Source of the DNA: Chloroflexota bacterium | Lineage (GTDB): Bacteria; Chloroflexota; Dehalococcoidia; Lucifugimonadales; Lucifugimonadaceae | Assembly: GCA_002721675.1 (NCBI GenBank) | Contig: PBLC01000014.1 | Span: 1-49,409 of the forward strand | Direction: 5' to 3' | DNA length: 49,409 nt | Part shown: piece after piece, positions 35,382-48,452 of the stretch | How the letters are laid out: each line of letters opens with the position of its first letter | Position numbering within the stretch: the stretch's first letter is position 1 | The notes under the pieces: model-generated | The model's input: the letters and a program-made list of their open reading frames with translations, nothing else | Database searches by the model: none | What the model was told of the DNA's origin: nothing | Made by a program: the position numbers and the translations under genes

Positions 35382-37655
35382 TTATTTTTTTCTTTTTAAA
35401 GCTTCTGTAATTCTAGAAGGTTTCATAGGAGTGCTAAGTAGCCTCAATCCTAAAGCATCATTAATTGCATTTCCAATAGCTGGGACTGGAGGAACAATAG
35501 GAGGTTCACCTACTCCTCTAACTCCATAAGGATGTTCTTCGCTTGGCACTTCAACCATAATAGTATCAATCATTGGAAGATCTAGCGCTATAGGCATTCT
35601 GTAATCCAAGTAACTTGAGTTAAGCATTACTCCATCTTCGTTCATAAAGTACTCTTCATTCAAAGCCCAACCTATTCCTTGAGCAGCTCCTCCTTGCATC
35701 TGACCTTCAACATAAGAAGGATGAATTGCTTTTCCAACATCCTGTATAGCAGTATAGTTTATTACATCTGTCTTTCCAGTTTCTTCATCAATTTCTAGGT
35801 CAGCAATATGAACTGCAAAACCACCTCCTGCTTCTTCTAAGTCAACAGATGCGGATGAAACTATAGGTCCTCCTGGAGGATCATCAGCAATCTCCTTTAA
35901 AGTCATTTTTAACTCTGAATCTGTTTTTGATTTTACAATTCCATCAGAATATTCTATCTGATCTTCGCTAATATCCCATTTAATAGCTGCTTTCTCAATA
36001 ATCTCTTCAATCAATTTATGGGCAGCATTGTATGCAGCATATCCTGTAGCATAAGTTGTACGACTACCTCCTGTAACATCAGTAATTCCAATGCTATCTG
36101 TATCTACAACTGAAGGTCTTACATCTTCGGCAGCAATTCCTAGTACCTCGGCTGCCTGCATAGCAATTGAAGCTCTTGATCCACCAATATCAGTTGACCC
36201 TTCAGTAAGTGCTACTTTACCGTCAGGGTTAAGTGAAAGATTTACAGAAGACTTGAATCCTATATTAAACCAATACCCACTTGCTATACCTCTTCCTCTT
36301 TTCTTGCCAGGACTTGGATTTGAATCTAAAGTTGATTTCCAATGATTAGAGTTTTTTGCAGCCTCTAAACACTCTTTTAATCCAATAGTTCTGTACTTCG
36401 GACCTAAAGCTGTTCTTGTACCTTTCTCAGCAACATTCATGAGTCTAAAATCAATAGGATCGTAACCTTTGATCTCACAAATTTCATCAACTACTGTTTC
36501 TGTAGCAAATGCAACTTGAGGAGAGGCTGGGGCTCTATAAGGAGCAGAACTTGGCTTATTTACCAAAACATCATAAGCATCAATCTTCATAGATGGGACA
36601 TCATAGCAAGAAAATACACACTTAGCTGCTGCCTCAATGAAAGCCTCAGGGTATGCGCCTGCCTCAAGTCTTATATCCGCATAAGCTGCTAAAATTTTTC
36701 CTTCTGAGTCAATTCCAATTTTTACTTTTACTTTCCCTCCAGGACCTGGGCCAGTAGCATCGAATACATCTGTCCTGCTCATCATTGCCTTAACAGGCCT
36801 CCTAGTCTTTTTGGAGAGTACGGCTGCTATTGGCTCTAAATAAATAGGAATTTTTCCTCCAAAACCTCCTCCTATCTCCATAGGAGTTACTTTAACTCTA
36901 GATACATCTAGGTCCAGTACTTTCGATACACTATCTCTAACAGAAAACGATCCTTGAGTGCTAGTCCATACTTTCACCCTATCTTCTTCATCCCAAACTG
37001 CAGTACCGCTATGAGGCTCTATATAACCCTGATGAACAGTCTGCATGTCAACTTCTTTTTCTACTACCAAATCTGACTTCTTGAAGCCATCATCAATATC
37101 TCCAACTTCATGTCTTGCGTGAGCGGCAACATTGCTATTTTTAACTTTTTTTCCTAAGTGATCTCCAGTGTAATCTTCGTGCAAAATTGGAGCATCTTTC
37201 GCCATTGCCTGATCAACATTTATAACAGGCTTTAAAACTTCATAATCCACTTTAATCTTTTTAACTGCTTCAAATGCAGTATTTTGATCTTTAGCAGCAA
37301 CTCCTGCTACTACATGACCTTTATATAAAACCTTATCAAAGGCCATAACATTTTCACTTAAATGTTTTTCTGACCCCGATTCTTCTGAGTTTCCTCTCAC
37401 TACATCACCCAGCCTAGGCAAATCTTTAGACGTCATAACTGCGAAAACTCCATCCATCTTCTCAGCCTCTGAAGTATCTATTGATTTAATTTTTGCGTGG
37501 GCATAAGGGCTTCTAAGAACTGCACCTATTAGCATTCCAGGAAGTTTGATGTCTGCACCATACTGTGCTCTTCCAGTAACTTTGTCATATCCGTCGTGCC
37601 TTATAGGTCTTGTGCCAATTACTTTATAATTTTTATTCTCCGAAGTTGATACCAT
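35382..37655 (-). CDS. Molybdenum hydroxylase large (Mo-cofactor) subunit, xanthine dehydrogenase family
   Basis: A 757-residue catalytic subunit that binds the molybdopterin-cytosine-dinucleotide cofactor and hydroxylates an N-heterocycle, aldehyde or other carbon centre. Landmarks: DKVTGRAQYGADI, RSPYAHAKI, GGGFGGKIPIYLEP, APYRAPASPQ, GSTDIGGSRASIAMQ, QGIGWALNEEYF and the active-site Glu in RGVGEPPIVPP. CO dehydrogenase is ruled out, because its CSFR loop is absent and this position reads YRAPASP. The substrate is unknown. A strong GGAG ribosome site precedes it. It forms an operon with the iron-sulfur and FAD subunits. Confidence 0.88.
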   Translation of the reverse strand: MVSTSENKNYKVIGTRPIRHDGYDKVTGRAQYGADIKLPGMLIGAVLRSPYAHAKIKSIDTSEAEKMDGVFAVMTSKDLPRLGDVVRGNSEESGSEKHLSENVMAFDKVLYKGHVVAGVAAKDQNTAFEAVKKIKVDYEVLKPVINVDQAMAKDAPILHEDYTGDHLGKKVKNSNVAAHARHEVGDIDDGFKKSDLVVEKEVDMQTVHQGYIEPHSGTAVWDEEDRVKVWTSTQGSFSVRDSVSKVLDLDVSRVKVTPMEIGGGFGGKIPIYLEPIAAVLSKKTRRPVKAMMSRTDVFDATGPGPGGKVKVKIGIDSEGKILAAYADIRLEAGAYPEAFIEAAAKCVFSCYDVPSMKIDAYDVLVNKPSSAPYRAPASPQVAFATETVVDEICEIKGYDPIDFRLMNVAEKGTRTALGPKYRTIGLKECLEAAKNSNHWKSTLDSNPSPGKKRGRGIASGYWFNIGFKSSVNLSLNPDGKVALTEGSTDIGGSRASIAMQAAEVLGIAAEDVRPSVVDTDSIGITDVTGGSRTTYATGYAAYNAAHKLIEEIIEKAAIKWDISEDQIEYSDGIVKSKTDSELKMTLKEIADDPPGGPIVSSASVDLEEAGGGFAVHIADLEIDEETGKTDVINYTAIQDVGKAIHPSYVEGQMQGGAAQGIGWALNEEYFMNEDGVMLNSSYLDYRMPIALDLPMIDTIMVEVPSEEHPYGVRGVGEPPIVPPVPAIGNAINDALGLRLLSTPMKPSRITEALKRKK

Positions 37656-37665
37656 TTTTACTCCT

Positions 37666-38151
37666 TTACTTAGATTCTTTTGAAGCCTTAGACACTGCTT
37701 TCACAATTTTGTCATAACCAGTACATCTACATAAATTACCTGCCAGCCAGTGTCTTATTCTTTCTTCAGAAGGATCAGGTTCATTATCTAGCAGAGCTTT
37801 AGCTGAAACAAGGAAGCCTGGAGTACAAATACCACACTGTAAAGCAGCCTCTTCTAGAAATGCTTGTTGAAGAGGATGAAGGCCATCTGGTGTTGCCATA
37901 CCTTCAACAGTTTCAATATTTTTACCTTCTACTTCTACTCCTAAAACAAGACAAGAATCCACAATTCTTCCATCTAAGTTAACAGTACAAGCTCCGCAGT
38001 TTCCGTCGTTACAACCTTCTTTGGTTCCTGTAATTCCAACTACTTCTCGCAGTGTCTCTAAAAGGCTTACGTATGGGTCTACAAGTATATCCATCTCTTC
38101 GCCATTAATTTTTGTATTTACTGCAACCTTTTTTACTTTATTTTCAGCCAT
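37666..38151 (-). CDS. Molybdenum hydroxylase small [2Fe-2S] subunit
   Basis: A 161-residue protein with two [2Fe-2S] clusters. The plant-ferredoxin-like set is GCNDGNCGACTV plus a later DSCL; the helical-domain set is CGICTPGFL plus LCRCTGY. It carries electrons between the molybdenum and FAD subunits. The ATG follows a strong GGAGG, which overlaps the stop of the FAD gene, so the two are tightly coupled. Confidence 0.94.
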   Translation of the reverse strand: MAENKVKKVAVNTKINGEEMDILVDPYVSLLETLREVVGITGTKEGCNDGNCGACTVNLDGRIVDSCLVLGVEVEGKNIETVEGMATPDGLHPLQQAFLEEAALQCGICTPGFLVSAKALLDNEPDPSEERIRHWLAGNLCRCTGYDKIVKAVSKASKESK

Positions 38152-38152
38152 T

Positions 38153-39016
38153 TTATCCTCCTACTCTCTCTAGTGCTTTAGATATTGTTCTTCTCGTAAG
38201 AACTTCGATTAAATCTTTTCTATGTTCAACCGTTCCTCTCATATCAGCAATAGGACTTGCAATGTCCTTAGCCTTTTCAGAAACTTTTTTTATATTTTCA
38301 TCAGTTGGCTCTTTGCCCACTAATAATTCAGAAGCTTCTTTTGCAAATATTGGAGTTGGGCCTACTGCAGCTAATGCAACTCTACAAGATGAGACTTTTC
38401 CATTGCTTAATTCAAGAGATGATGCAACAGCCGCAACTGCTATATCCATCTCATTTCTAGGAATAAATCTTTCATAAGAAGCAGAGAACTTACCTTTTTT
38501 TAATGGCATCTTTAAAGAAACTAAAAATTCTCCGCTTTCCAAAGCATTTTTGCCTGGTCCTGTGCACATATCTTCAACAGGAATCTCTCTTGTTCCTTTA
38601 GGTCCAGCAATTTCGCAAGTAGTTTCATGAACAATTAAAGAGCAAATTGCATCAGCACTTGGAGAAGCGTTGCATAAATTTCCTCCTAAACTAGCTCTAG
38701 ACTGAATCTGTATTCCTCCAATTAAGAATGCTGAATCAATTATACCTGGAAATACCTCACAAACTTTAGGGTCTTCATATAAAACATGACACGGTGTGGC
38801 AGCCCCAATAATTAAATGAGAATCCGTCCATTCTAGTTTAGTGAGTTGAGGAATCTTTTTTACATCAACTATTGCGTCAAGTTCAAATTTTTCTCCTCTA
38901 GCCTGAACGAGAACATCAGTTCCCCCGGCAAGACACTTGGCTCTATCACCGTATTTCTTCAGTATCTCAGTAGCCTCTTCTATTGTCTCGGGAGCATAAT
39001 AATTAAATGGATGCAT
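38153..39016 (-). CDS. Molybdenum hydroxylase medium (FAD) subunit
   Basis: A 287-residue FAD-binding subunit with KCLAGGTDVLVQARG and SRASLGGNLCNASPSAD, the two FAD-contact motifs of CoxM/XdhB-type proteins, and the C-terminal CO-dehydrogenase-flavoprotein domain. It is the first gene of the operon and has the best ribosome site in the window (GGAGGT, 6 bases before ATG). Confidence 0.93.
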   Translation of the reverse strand: MHPFNYYAPETIEEATEILKKYGDRAKCLAGGTDVLVQARGEKFELDAIVDVKKIPQLTKLEWTDSHLIIGAATPCHVLYEDPKVCEVFPGIIDSAFLIGGIQIQSRASLGGNLCNASPSADAICSLIVHETTCEIAGPKGTREIPVEDMCTGPGKNALESGEFLVSLKMPLKKGKFSASYERFIPRNEMDIAVAAVASSLELSNGKVSSCRVALAAVGPTPIFAKEASELLVGKEPTDENIKKVSEKAKDIASPIADMRGTVEHRKDLIEVLTRRTISKALERVGG

Positions 39017-39116: not shown

Positions 39117-39695
39117 TTATTTTTCTAAAAGTGCCAATAACTTTTCGCAGTTCCCTAAAGAGTCTTTTGGGTCAATACCGTGACATAGGAGAATAAAGTT
39201 ACCTTGAATCACATAATTTTTATACTTAGAATTTAAGCAATGTCCACCTACACCAGCTCCTCCGCTAGTATCTCCTCCCATGCCTCTTTGAGAACCAGAA
39301 CCAACGCATTCTCGAACATCTTTCAATCCTTCAGTGAATACAGCCTCATCTTTCTTAAGTTTTATCTCTTCTTCTGTTCCGGCTCTTTCTCTAACTAGAG
39401 CCTCACCATTAAGAGCATCATTATGAGAATCAAAAAATCTAATTTCATAATCTACAGGATCTTCAAATTTTTTGAATCCAAAATAAACTTCTTTAGCATA
39501 TGTTAATTGCTCGACAGAATATTCTTTTGATTTTTTAAACTTAACTGGAGATCCAGTGAAATCATCTAAACTATAAATAACATCGCTGGTTACAATTTTT
39601 CCAACTACCACTGGCCCATCATCACCACTTGAAGAACATCCTATGATTGATAGAAGACTAAAAGTTATTAAAATTGTTTTATATATATATTTCAT
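39117..39695 (-). CDS. Lipoprotein of an unrecognised family, paralogue A
   Basis: A 192-residue predicted lipoprotein: signal peptide with lipobox Cys 20 (IIGC-SSS). The body has a segment VIYSLDDF, YEIRFFDSHNDAL, KLKKDEAVFTEGLKDVREC, a Gly-rich loop (GSGSQRGMGGDTSGGAG) and NYVIQGNFILLCHG. It is clearly homologous to the lipoprotein two genes upstream, sharing the order of motifs and paired Cys residues around the Gly loop, which may form disulfides. I do not recognise the family. The surface location is inferred. Confidence 0.7.
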   Translation of the reverse strand: MKYIYKTILITFSLLSIIGCSSSGDDGPVVVGKIVTSDVIYSLDDFTGSPVKFKKSKEYSVEQLTYAKEVYFGFKKFEDPVDYEIRFFDSHNDALNGEALVRERAGTEEEIKLKKDEAVFTEGLKDVRECVGSGSQRGMGGDTSGGAGVGGHCLNSKYKNYVIQGNFILLCHGIDPKDSLGNCEKLLALLEK

Positions 39696-39739
39696 TTTTA
39701 TTATCTACTTATCACTTATTCTACATTTTTTAAGAAATA

Positions 39740-40222
39740 TTATTTATTTGGCCCATAGCGATTTTCTTCTTTGTTACCTTCTTCTACTAGAAACATAAAT
39801 ATTGGAAAGCACCACCACAATGTAAGTGCAAAAATGGCAAAAATAAAAATAGAATAAAGAAAAATTTGAAGTATATCCATTTGTACTGCAGTTTGATTAT
39901 CTGGAGCAATTAAAGATAGAAAAAGAAGTGAAGAATATGCTAATAGTGCGAAGGGAGCAAATCCAATAAGCCAAAAGGCACTCTTATTCACATCATGCAA
40001 TCTCCTTACAGTGACGGCCAAAGTGGGTATAAAAAGTATTAAATAATAAATAATAAGGAATATTGCTAAAGGTCTTGCTCTAAGAGATAAGAACAACAAT
40101 GGTAGAAACGTCAATTGTGTAAAAAGCCAAAAACTCCAATACTCTTTTCTAGGAGATCTTCCTGAAAAATCAAAAGGTTTTTCAAATAAGACTATTCTTA
40201 TTTGATTGAAAAAATCATTCAA
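39740..40222 (-). CDS. DUF805 membrane protein
   Basis: A 160-residue protein with about four membrane spans. DFSGRSPRKEYWSFWLF and TLAVTVRRLHDVNKSAFW are the two DUF805 signatures. The biochemical role of DUF805 is unknown; members are often near phage, stress or envelope genes. Here it lies between two paralogous lipoproteins and overlaps the upstream one by eight bases, so the three are probably one functional unit. Confidence 0.82.
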   Translation of the reverse strand: MNDFFNQIRIVLFEKPFDFSGRSPRKEYWSFWLFTQLTFLPLLFLSLRARPLAIFLIIYYLILFIPTLAVTVRRLHDVNKSAFWLIGFAPFALLAYSSLLFLSLIAPDNQTAVQMDILQIFLYSIFIFAIFALTLWWCFPIFMFLVEEGNKEENRYGPNK

Positions 40223-40799
40223 CTTCGGTGCCTTGGATTAAAGAAAGTAGGTCAACACAATGAATTCTAGATTCAGTTTCATTTTCACCTTGGCATAATG
40301 CAATCATATTTCCTATAACAAAAAATTCATTGTATTTTGGCGAAGAACAACTTCCAACTGCATGATCTCCGGCTGCACCTACTCCACCACCACTAACTCC
40401 TCCTCCTGCTCCACCACACTGCCTAGCATCCTTCAAGCCTTCAGCCCACGTTGCTTCATCTTTTTTTAATTTAGCGTCAGGCCCAACTCTTTCTTTCGCT
40501 ATGTTTAAGCCAGGCGACATAGCTAAATCATGATTAGGATAAAATCTTATCTCGTATTCAATTGCTTCTTTTGAGTCAGGTTTCTTATAAAAAACAAAGT
40601 ATGCACTTTCTGCGTCTTGCAGATCCTTAACCTTGTAAGTTTTCCCCTTTTTTACGCCTAAACTTTTCAAATCCTCTAGCGTATAAACCTTGTCTGATGG
40701 ATTAATTTGTGTAAAAGCTACATCCGAACTACCTTCTCCACCACAGGCAAATAGTCCTATCGTCAGGACAAATAATATAGATGTCATTGTAATTCTCAT
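40215..40799 (-). CDS. Lipoprotein of an unrecognised family, paralogue B
   Basis: A 194-residue predicted lipoprotein (lipobox LFAC, Cys 19). It repeats the layout of paralogue A: KVYTLEDLKSLGVKKGKTY, EYEIRFYPNHDLAM, KLKKDEATWAEGLKDARQC, a Gly-rich loop and FFVIGNMIALCQG. Four Cys after the lipobox are matched between the two. A GGGGGA site precedes the ATG. It heads the three-gene operon and is divergent from the UxuA-like gene with a 60-base spacer. Confidence 0.7.
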   Translation of the reverse strand: MRITMTSILFVLTIGLFACGGEGSSDVAFTQINPSDKVYTLEDLKSLGVKKGKTYKVKDLQDAESAYFVFYKKPDSKEAIEYEIRFYPNHDLAMSPGLNIAKERVGPDAKLKKDEATWAEGLKDARQCGGAGGGVSGGGVGAAGDHAVGSCSSPKYNEFFVIGNMIALCQGENETESRIHCVDLLSLIQGTEVE

Positions 40800-40859: not shown

Positions 40860-41924
40860 ATGACAAATAAATCAAAAATAAAAATTGCTGCACAAGTAAG
40901 CCCTAACCCCAGCGAAGAAGACATTGCATTTATAAAAGAATTAGGGCTTGATTATGTGACTCTTTTTGCAGGGAGAGGAGAGGCAAGTTACGACTTTTTT
41001 ATGAAACAAAGAGAGATATTTGAGCCTCATGACTTAAAAATATATGGATTTGGGAATTCAAGTATACATAATCATGATTCTTTAGTTTTAAATTTAAATG
41101 ATAGAGATCAGGTTATAGAAGATTATAAAAAATATATTAGAGATTTGAGTAAAGCAGGAATTTTTTATTCTACTTACGCACACATGGCCAGTGGAGTTTG
41201 GAGTACAGCAAAGGAGCCAACAAGAGGAGGAGCCCTTGGAAGATCATTTAATGTGAATGCTGAAACTTTTTATCTTAACGACCGCAAAGGACCAAGAACT
41301 ATTTCAAAAGGAGAATTAACTCATTCAAAAGAATATTCTGAAGAAGAATTATGGGAAAATTTTGAATATTATATTAAAGCTGTAAAACCAACTATTGAAG
41401 ATTCAGGAGTAAAAATAGGGATTCATCCTGATGATCCTCCTGGGTTAAAGCTAGGCGGAGTTCCTCGTTGCATATTTAGCACATTTAGTGGATATCAAAG
41501 AGCATTAGAAATTGCAGACAGTCCTAATATAGGAATTTGCTTATGCGCAGGAACTTGGCTTGAGGGCGGAGATACGACAGAGAAAAATGTAACTGAAATG
41601 GCAAAATATTTTGGAGATCAAAATAAATTATTCAAGATTCATTTTAGGAATGTTGATAAACCGCTTCCTCATTTTAAAGAAACCTTCTTGGATGATGGTT
41701 ATATGGATATGTATAAGATTATAAAAGTACTAAAAGAAGTTGATTTTGATGGAATAATTATACCTGATCATAATCCAACAATGGGATCACTTGCAGACCG
41801 AAACTCAACAGATCCTCATTGGCATCACAAAGAAGAAAAGTATGGTGTGGCAAATAGAATTCCAACTGCATTTGCAATAGGGTATATGAAGGCTTTAGTT
41901 GAAAGAGTCGAAGAAGAAGAATAA
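40860..41924 (+). CDS. UxuA-like mannonate dehydratase family protein
   Basis: A 354-residue TIM-barrel protein with IGIHPDDPPG, the metal site around CLCAGTW, KIHFRNVDKP and IIPDHNPTMG, and a C-terminal GYMKAL. These are the landmarks of UxuA, which dehydrates D-mannonate to 2-keto-3-deoxygluconate in hexuronate breakdown. It is shorter than E. coli UxuA (about 394) and no KdgK, KdgA or UxuB lies nearby. It may therefore act on another sugar acid, or on a substrate linked to the downstream phosphonate cluster, which starts three bases later. The family is fairly sure and the substrate is not. Confidence 0.75.
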   Translation: MTNKSKIKIAAQVSPNPSEEDIAFIKELGLDYVTLFAGRGEASYDFFMKQREIFEPHDLKIYGFGNSSIHNHDSLVLNLNDRDQVIEDYKKYIRDLSKAGIFYSTYAHMASGVWSTAKEPTRGGALGRSFNVNAETFYLNDRKGPRTISKGELTHSKEYSEEELWENFEYYIKAVKPTIEDSGVKIGIHPDDPPGLKLGGVPRCIFSTFSGYQRALEIADSPNIGICLCAGTWLEGGDTTEKNVTEMAKYFGDQNKLFKIHFRNVDKPLPHFKETFLDDGYMDMYKIIKVLKEVDFDGIIIPDHNPTMGSLADRNSTDPHWHHKEEKYGVANRIPTAFAIGYMKALVERVEEEE

Positions 41925-46467: not shown

Positions 46468-47271
46468 CTAATTAATATATTCCTCAATCTGTTCAAGCGA
46501 AGCATAGCCTTGAAATTTAGCAACGATCATTCCTGATTTCGATACTACGTATAACCACTGGCCTTCATCAACGCCCCATTCTCTAATAACTGGATTAATC
46601 TTTTTCTTCTCAAAATCATTTTTCAACTCGACAGGATTTAAATAAGTTTCAATATGAACTATAGGCAAAGATCTATATTTTTCACTTAGTTCATAGAGAG
46701 TATCTATTTGAGGTCCGCAAGTAGGATCTATACAAAAAGCTGGACTCATAAAAGATACGATAAATAGTTCATTAGCTTTTAAAAGTTCACTAACCTTACT
46801 CTTGTAAAATAAGTCATTTAGTGGAGTTCCGGTTGAAAGGTTTTCAATAGATGTATCATCAATAGTTAGGTTATTTGATGCCGGTGCTCTATCACCTACG
46901 CTTAGAGATTCAGAAATCTCTTTTACAGAAAAAATGGCATATCCATCACCCAGACTAATTTTCCATTCTCCACTTTTTTCAAAATCAATTATCTCAGTGT
47001 ATAAACCGTTATTTAAGCCCGTATCATAATAGTCTGGAAAGCCAACAAATATTAGTTCTTTCTTAAATTTGGGGTACCCTCCTTCTCCGTTAAATGAAAC
47101 TTCTAAAGACTCTTTATTTACTAATCCATTAGTATCTGCAAAAGCAACCGAAAACCTATTTGTACCAACCTGAAGATCTTCTGTAGCTACAAAAATCTGT
47201 ACATTTTCATGAGTTGAGCATGAAAATAACAACAACGAAATAAAGGATATTAATAATATATATATTTTCAT
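46468..47271 (-). CDS. Lipoprotein with a C-terminal thioredoxin-like domain
   Basis: A 267-residue predicted lipoprotein (lipobox LFSC, Cys 18). The first 110 residues look like an immunoglobulin-type beta domain. The second half has a redoxin pattern: DRAPASNN, LFIVSFMSPAFCIDPTCGPQ, VHIETY and YVVSKSGMIVAKFQGYAS. The Cys pair is spaced CxxxxC rather than CxxC, as in SCO1-like variants with altered spacing, so it may bind metal or act as a thiol reductant outside the membrane. It starts at TAATG on the stop of the next thioredoxin-type gene. Confidence 0.62.
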   Translation of the reverse strand: MKIYILLISFISLLLFSCSTHENVQIFVATEDLQVGTNRFSVAFADTNGLVNKESLEVSFNGEGGYPKFKKELIFVGFPDYYDTGLNNGLYTEIIDFEKSGEWKISLGDGYAIFSVKEISESLSVGDRAPASNNLTIDDTSIENLSTGTPLNDLFYKSKVSELLKANELFIVSFMSPAFCIDPTCGPQIDTLYELSEKYRSLPIVHIETYLNPVELKNDFEKKKINPVIREWGVDEGQWLYVVSKSGMIVAKFQGYASLEQIEEYIN

Positions 47272-48452
47272 TAAAATCCTTCCTCATAAGAACCAAATGT
47301 GAAAGCAAAAACAGATATTCCTTTATCTTGCGGAAGTAAAGTGATCACTTTCTCTGTATATTCTGGAAGAATTAGAAGGGAGTACATTTTAGGCTCGTTA
47401 ATATTTATATAACTCCTCCCTTTGTTATCAAAACTGATATCTAACCCAGCTTCATTCTCTTCCAAAAATTTTCCATCTAATTTAACAAAAAGTTTAGATT
47501 CATTGTCGCTTGAGAAAACACCATTAACACTCTTAGATCTAAATTTAAAAGATAAATATTCGTTTTCAGAAGGAGAATTATTTCCAGAAATTACACTCTC
47601 AAAATCATTATTCCAATTTCCACTTAAATAAAATTTATTATGAGAATATTCATAGTCATCAATATAGTTATGGGGGCTTCCTATGTTGTCATAATAATCA
47701 ATATTTCCACAATAAACACCTCCGTAAGAAAGATTTCTCTCACTTCCCATATATAGCTCTCTAGTCATTCTATAAAATGGCCTCTCACCATCTGCGTTCT
47801 TATCATTCATTCCAGAATTTTCAGCATAAAAGCCACCGAAAACAGATTCGTCTATTTCTTGGTTCTCAATCTTTCCTAATTCCTTATTTGATAGATCTTT
47901 ATTTTTTTCTTCTAAAAGTTTTCGGATTTCTTTTTCAGCTTCAATATACCCACCCTCTCCAAAATGAGCGTACACAACCTGGCCTTCAGAATTAAATAAA
48001 TATTTTGCTGGCCAATATCTGTTATTGAACTCGTTCCAAATATCAAAATTATTATCTAGAACTATTGGATAATCTAAATTATTTTCTTCAACTGATTTTT
48101 TTATATTCTTAATTTTTTTCTCAAACTCAAACTCAGGAGTGTGTACGCCAATTATTACTAGGCCATCATCCTTGTACTTACTATTCCACTCATTAATAAA
48201 AGGAAAGGTTCTTATGCAATTAACACAGGTATAAGTCCAAAAATCTATCAAAACAATCTTGCCTTCGCCTACTTGGCCACCAATAGAAATTGGGTCAGAA
48301 TTAATCCATTCTGTGTTTTCATAGTTTGGAATCTCATGTTGAGGGGTAATGTATATTTCAGGCTCAGACTTAATATCTTCCGAGCAAGAAAATAAAATTA
48401 CTGCCAAAATTAATATGGATAAATATTTTTTAAGCAATTCCCAATCCAGCAT
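47271..48452 (-). CDS. TlpA/DipZ-like thioredoxin-domain lipoprotein
   Basis: A 393-residue predicted lipoprotein (LFSC, Cys 23). A thioredoxin domain has VLIDFWTYTCVNCIRTFP (active-site pair C76/C79), VIGVHTPEFEFE and the WPAKYLF cis-Pro region. The C-terminal 200 residues form a beta-rich domain like the extra domain of DipZ proteins. It probably works in disulfide exchange or cytochrome maturation outside the cytoplasm. The start is uncertain: ATG at 48452 gives an acidic N-tip, while a TTG five codons on gives a more usual signal peptide (MLKKYLSI). It overlaps the Hyi-like gene by 23 bases. Confidence 0.78.
   Translation of the reverse strand: MLDWELLKKYLSILILAVILFSCSEDIKSEPEIYITPQHEIPNYENTEWINSDPISIGGQVGEGKIVLIDFWTYTCVNCIRTFPFINEWNSKYKDDGLVIIGVHTPEFEFEKKIKNIKKSVEENNLDYPIVLDNNFDIWNEFNNRYWPAKYLFNSEGQVVYAHFGEGGYIEAEKEIRKLLEEKNKDLSNKELGKIENQEIDESVFGGFYAENSGMNDKNADGERPFYRMTRELYMGSERNLSYGGVYCGNIDYYDNIGSPHNYIDDYEYSHNKFYLSGNWNNDFESVISGNNSPSENEYLSFKFRSKSVNGVFSSDNESKLFVKLDGKFLEENEAGLDISFDNKGRSYININEPKMYSLLILPEYTEKVITLLPQDKGISVFAFTFGSYEEGF

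Follow-up and report, generated by a model that had tools for sequence, protein, structure and literature searches.

DUF6810 lipoproteins form a lineage-specific expansion in one SAR202 family, with a candidate paralog-specific loop and a conserved ABC-transporter neighbour

Analysis of two lipoproteins (LP1 and LP2) that flank a DUF805 membrane protein in the window, the whole stretch of 49,409 nucleotides analysed, places both by profile search in Pfam PF20650 (DUF6810), a family with many copies per genome whose largest cluster lies beside a conserved transporter locus. We tentatively favour the view that these proteins are anchored in the membrane and serve uptake or sensing as accessory proteins, each paralog with its own ligand. 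Extracellular ligand binding that supports uptake appears to be the most likely role, and sensing is its main rival.

The operon consists of three minus-strand ORFs at 39117-40799, in the order LP1, DUF805, LP2. LP1 and LP2 can be aligned end to end with 36% identity (E 9e-34), which agrees with the earlier note on this DNA, where two related lipoproteins on either side of a DUF805 protein were described; the motifs listed there as shared are all present in both proteins, in identical order. That note also spoke of one overlapping operon. The operon is conserved, but overlap is limited to the reading frames of LP1 and DUF805 (8 bp, also present in relatives at loci L046 and L048), and the start of LP2 lies 44 bp past DUF805. 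Compared with relatives, dN/dS was 0.03-0.13 for LP1, 0.08-0.13 for LP2 and 0.20-0.26 for DUF805; all three genes are under purifying selection, which is stronger on the lipoproteins than on DUF805.

Directly downstream of LP2, a three-subunit molybdenum hydroxylase (MoCoBD, Fer2_2, FAD_binding_5) is encoded at 35382-39016 on the minus strand, and its position beside LP2 is retained in relatives L046-L049. Beginning beside the UxuA-like gene divergent from LP1, the plus-strand segment 41927-46333 looks like a phosphonate biosynthesis cluster: it carries genes for an Fe-ADH, a PEP phosphomutase with an attached NTP-transferase domain, a TPP enzyme whose N- and C-terminal parts are separate genes, and a cytidylyltransferase-like protein. 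A protein with thioredoxin-like and Thioredoxin_10 domains is encoded at 47271-48452 on the minus strand, about 6.5 kb from the operon, and in the cultured Candidatus Lucifugimonas marina another such protein (L171:18435-19673, minus strand) neighbours the DUF6810 array and the Opp operon.

Table 1. Position in the window of the operon genes, the LP1 loop and the divergent neighbour.
Feature	Position	Strand	Basis
LP1 (DUF6810 lipoprotein, 194 aa)	40215-40799	-	ORF and PF20650 match, E 3.9e-41
DUF805 membrane protein, 160 aa, TTG start	39740-40222	-	PF05656 match, E 1.9e-20
LP2 (DUF6810 lipoprotein, 192 aa; two cysteine pairs; Gly-rich loop)	39117-39695	-	PF20650 match, E 7.4e-33
LP1 Gly-rich loop, C128 to C151 (residues 129-150), candidate paralog-specific recognition loop	40350-40415	-	
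UxuA-like TIM-barrel protein gene, divergent neighbour of LP1	40860-41924	+	context only

The PF20650 profile scored 140.7 bits with LP1 and 113.8 bits with LP2 against a cut-off of 25, with most of the profile covered, and matched all 108 aligned homologs; the middle gene scored 73.8 bits with PF05656 (DUF805; cut-off 25.7). The opinion that no described family fits the two lipoproteins is overturned by this search, which puts both far above the cut-off. LP1 and LP2 have in common with the family the lipobox, E.RF and GN...C...C. Five residues (E83, R85, N164, C169 and C181 in LP1 numbering) are invariant in 108/108 members and H90 is present in 97/108, and the KLKKDEA motif is not common to the whole family. 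Pfam gives no function for PF20650 or PF05656. DUF6810 was not mentioned by name in the literature searched, and no account of its copy numbers, cysteine rule, loop pattern or Opp synteny turned up in the SAR202 literature examined. The viral contigs searched contained no relative. At loci L171, L193, L194 and L195, the SBP gene is followed by one or two divergent DUF6810-like lipoproteins that converge on the main array; they match PF20650 mainly over its first 65 positions and possibly form a subfamily.

Copies of DUF6810 number 9 in the window's genome (G000; 0.98 Mb, 77% complete), 31 in a congener of 1.3 Mb (G002) and 18 in L. marina (G020). The family is carried by 49 of the 76 genomes of the window's own taxonomic family, in which several genera are without it. 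Outside that taxonomic family it was found in only two genomes of the order sample (247 genomes); in the phylum sample (201 genomes) it was found in the window's own genome only, and in none of 14 controls. DUF6810 is nearly restricted to one SAR202 family within the sets searched, and the records with relatives are metagenome-assembled and single-cell genomes under the titles SAR202, Dehalococcoidia or Chloroflexi, together with the cultured L. marina. Two copies in G000 (C13:541-1056 and C14:17769-18284) encode an identical protein, which reflects either a recent duplication or an assembly overlap. Lineage-specific paralog expansions have been described in the same organism group for COG4948, COG2141 and COG4638 (PMC6946804, PMC10444878); these are enzymes, whereas DUF6810 appears to be a family of lipid-anchored proteins, and the word "lipoprotein" is absent from the main text of both papers.

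The N-termini of LP1 and LP2 have a hydrophobic stretch and a lipobox (LFAC with Cys19 in LP1, IIGC with Cys20 in LP2), and an Lgt gene is encoded in the window's genome. The lipobox cysteine is invariant in 18/18 members of the untrimmed alignment, the larger alignment being trimmed at that residue. Every one of the 161 distinct full-length members has either two or four cysteines after the lipobox. In LP1 these are the invariant pair C169/C181 and the pair C128/C151; among the 108 aligned members, C128 and C151 are both present in 48, both absent in 60 and never found one alone. The two-or-four rule and this paired occurrence are good evidence for disulfides, of which each protein would have one or two. 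The cysteine-pair state changed only about four times on the tree (where the label "twoSS" means five or more cysteines), so the co-occurrence of C128 and C151 rests on few events, and the count of four mixes two positions because a small clade, which includes the C13 copy, has its extra pair elsewhere. Paralogy, lipoprotein nature and conserved cysteines, as proposed earlier, hold up.

LP1 and LP2 fall into separate ortholog groups in the tree, and LP1 clusters with its genome's C17 copy (SH-aLRT 85), not with LP2. Array positions recur as ortholog groups in different genomes, indicating that the paralogs are old. From this topology, LP1 and LP2 appear as two old members of the family and not as a recent pair. 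A recent tandem duplication was rejected for the same reason, and the earlier suggestion of a duplication with retained linkage is not supported.

The Gly-rich loop has an identity of 0.78, 0.69 and 1.00 in three ortholog groups, against 0.74, 0.83 and 0.73 in the core, and in the C17 group it is 100% identical among species. Between ortholog groups the loop identity is 0.25 against 0.44 in the core, a loop figure that gaps make look too low. Most other small clusters show the same trend as the three ortholog groups, with one exception (loop 0.37, core 0.63); a 58-member mixed cluster, which is no ortholog group, was left out of the comparison. Judged from these alignments, loop and core are conserved to about the same degree among orthologs, and the loop is unlike between paralogs; a loop that is fixed in the former and different in the latter follows the pattern that would be expected of a recognition loop. 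Many paralogs, loops that vary between them, a lipid anchor and a monoderm envelope (PMC10444878) might also be explained by structural, adhesive or phage-receptor lipoproteins of the cell surface, whose loops would be under diversifying pressure from phages, grazers or attachment surfaces. We consider this unlikely, since the conservation of loops between orthologs of different species, complete in the C17 group, is the opposite of an arms race, the dN/dS values are low and the transporter beside the arrays stays the same.

An SBP_bac_5 gene of one orthologous Opp/Dpp-type ABC-transporter locus borders the largest DUF6810 cluster in five genera; of the 11 genomes with DUF6810 that were compared, 8 show this adjacency. 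In the five array loci that were read, two permease-like and two ATPase-like ORFs run divergently from the SBP_bac_5 gene; all five transporter genes are Pfam-confirmed in the L. marina array, where the SBP gene lies at 1.808 Mb and the ATPases have oligo_HPY domains. The array SBP genes form one clade (SH-aLRT 100, in a tree without L083, a wrong ORF), which argues for one ancestral linkage kept across genera and not for many independent events. All DUF6810 genes of G036 and G027 lie within the SBP-adjacent cluster. These two genomes have about 31-32 SBP_bac_5 genes each, so that one adjacency there is not rare and the case rests on the synteny across genera. Direct adjacency is missing in 3 of the 11 genomes: none is seen in G012, the SBP gene of G007 is kept but lies near a contig edge, and in G000 the sole SBP gene near a DUF6810 copy is about 4 kb off and of another type. 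Most copies in the window's genus lie scattered and are not near any transporter. The array-type SBP was absent from DUF6810-negative genomes in a check that covered some of their SBP genes, and the neighbour-family profiles, built from the same loci, may miss distant members. Like DUF6810, the SBP_bac_5 proteins of Opp/Dpp transporters are lipoprotein-like and extracytoplasmic and are encoded at the same locus, but they have about 600 residues against about 160 and no sequence similarity to it. Profile searches of LP1, LP2 and the 108 aligned members matched no SBP family, and DUF6810 could be no more than an accessory of the SBP that this locus already encodes.

UxuA and enolase genes occur near the window operon and beside DUF6810 elsewhere, as neighbours in two genera. 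Taken with the invariant E83, R85 and N164 and the frequent H90, they could point to a family of extracytoplasmic enzymes, encoded near catabolic genes, with sugar acids or other dissolved organic matter as substrates. Such a function seems very improbable: no enzyme motif was found in DUF6810, profile searches gave no similarity to enzyme families, and the density of enolases near DUF6810 in L. marina (3.2 per 100 kb) equals the background (3.0), while the excess of catabolic genes in G002 is small and rests on few genes. An enrichment of UxuA and enolase genes near DUF6810 was not seen in L. marina, and this context was not used further.

The AF2 model of mature LP1 (pLDDT 85, pTM 0.80) predicts three strands, a helix, a disordered Gly-rich stretch, two strands and a helix, with pLDDT under 50 at mature residues 113-130, in the Gly-rich loop; a loop-short paralog was modelled with an identical order of elements (pLDDT 89.5). 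No solved relative of DUF6810 was found in the PDB by sequence profile, and Foldseek against the PDB and BFVD gave no match with E below 0.2. The best VIA matches (kinase N-lobes, PknH sensor, TM1622, TiME and BamC) did not exceed Z 5.6, so no fold was assigned. Two whole-domain matches are common to both models, the PknH sensor 4esq (Z 5.3 and 5.4; 124 and 114 residues aligned) and TiME (Z 4.3 and 4.6), and BamC recurs in part; these values, Z 4-5.4 overall, are in the noise range by the tool's own statement, and the resemblance to PknH and TiME is only a lead.

The PknH_C sensor domain (PF14032), present in mycobacterial PknH, LppH, LpqQ and Rv3705c, is small, extracytoplasmic and found in lipoproteins, with disulfides (PMC4118811), features that DUF6810 probably shares; the end-to-end fold resemblance, seen with TiME too, is weak (Z 4.3-5.4, in the noise range). 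The two differ in conserved residues and cysteine spacing and have no profile similarity, and by sequence DUF6810 is no member. Homology was rejected at this level: in a comparison with ten mycobacterial plasmid proteins, whose PknH query was checked against 4esq, the hhalign probability was 0.1, the same as with shuffled columns, and the PknH_C profile had no match among the 108 members at E up to 10. No PknH_C was found in plasmid NC_018022. The recurrence of these folds in two separate models, and the joint presence or absence of DUF805 and LP2 within the genus, would fit a sensor whose loop binds a ligand and whose membrane partners, DUF805 in this genus, are informed, by analogy with the mycobacterial PknH-type sensor domains and lipoproteins. 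We regard a sensor as unlikely, because Z values of about 5 lie in the tool's noise range, kinase N-lobes score equally high, the profile comparison did no better than column shuffles and no signalling gene was noticed at the DUF6810 arrays.

DUF805 adjoins DUF6810 in 7 of the 10 genomes of the window's genus, with a second, divergent pair in G001, and no such adjacency was seen in other genera among the places listed. Several DUF6810-bearing genomes have no DUF805 match and many DUF805-bearing genomes have no DUF6810. In G007 (89% complete) LP1 is present and both DUF805 and LP2 are absent, so that DUF805 and LP2 form a genus-level unit. At L253 (G001:C10:14800-17300) the LP2 ortholog matches in two reading frames, owing to either a frameshift or a sequencing error. 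The earlier note proposed a dedicated membrane complex of LP1, DUF805 and LP2, and the gene order and overlap conserved within the genus, the joint absence of DUF805 and LP2 from G007 and the purifying selection on all three genes are in keeping with it. But LP1 occurs in G007 without the other two, the three-gene unit was not seen outside the genus, DUF805 evolves faster (75% identity to its nearest relative, against 96 and 92% for the lipoproteins) and most DUF6810 paralogs have no DUF805 neighbour. A complex of all three is improbable; for LP2 and DUF805 it is possible in this genus and has no support beyond it.

Returning to uptake-supporting ligand binding, the DUF6810 lipoproteins would, after export, receive a lipid from Lgt at the lipobox cysteine and stay on the outer side of a single membrane, the cells of the cultured relative being monoderm. 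The mature part would fold into a single alpha/beta domain (b-b-b-a, loop, b-b-a) that the invariant C169/C181 pair locks, and in about half of the members, LP1 and LP2 included, C128/C151 would close the Gly-rich loop. Each paralog may bind a different extracellular small ligand, which would be passed to an uptake system, ancestrally the Opp/Dpp-type transporter beside the main cluster, or reported; in the window's genus DUF805 would be a recent membrane partner or a passenger of LP2. A shared scaffold, a differing loop and the position of the largest clusters beside an uptake transporter suggest that these proteins may help cells pick out or sense dissolved compounds.

A more specific reading, which we find rather unlikely, is that DUF6810 forms a repertoire of lipid-anchored recognition proteins, with one disulfide-locked scaffold, a paralog-specific loop and some 9-31 fixed specificities per genome, ancestrally tied to one peptide-type ABC transporter. 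SAR202 bacteria, an abundant group in the ocean, are believed to feed on resistant dissolved organic matter, and if this reading is true, their cells would own interchangeable capture heads for dissolved organic matter. The SAR202 paralog expansions described so far are of enzymes, and DUF6810 adds an expansion of lipoproteins without an enzyme signature. An expansion this large in genomes of about 1 Mb implies strong selection on some feature of the cell surface, and since L. marina is cultured and has 18 matches, the function of DUF6810 is directly testable.
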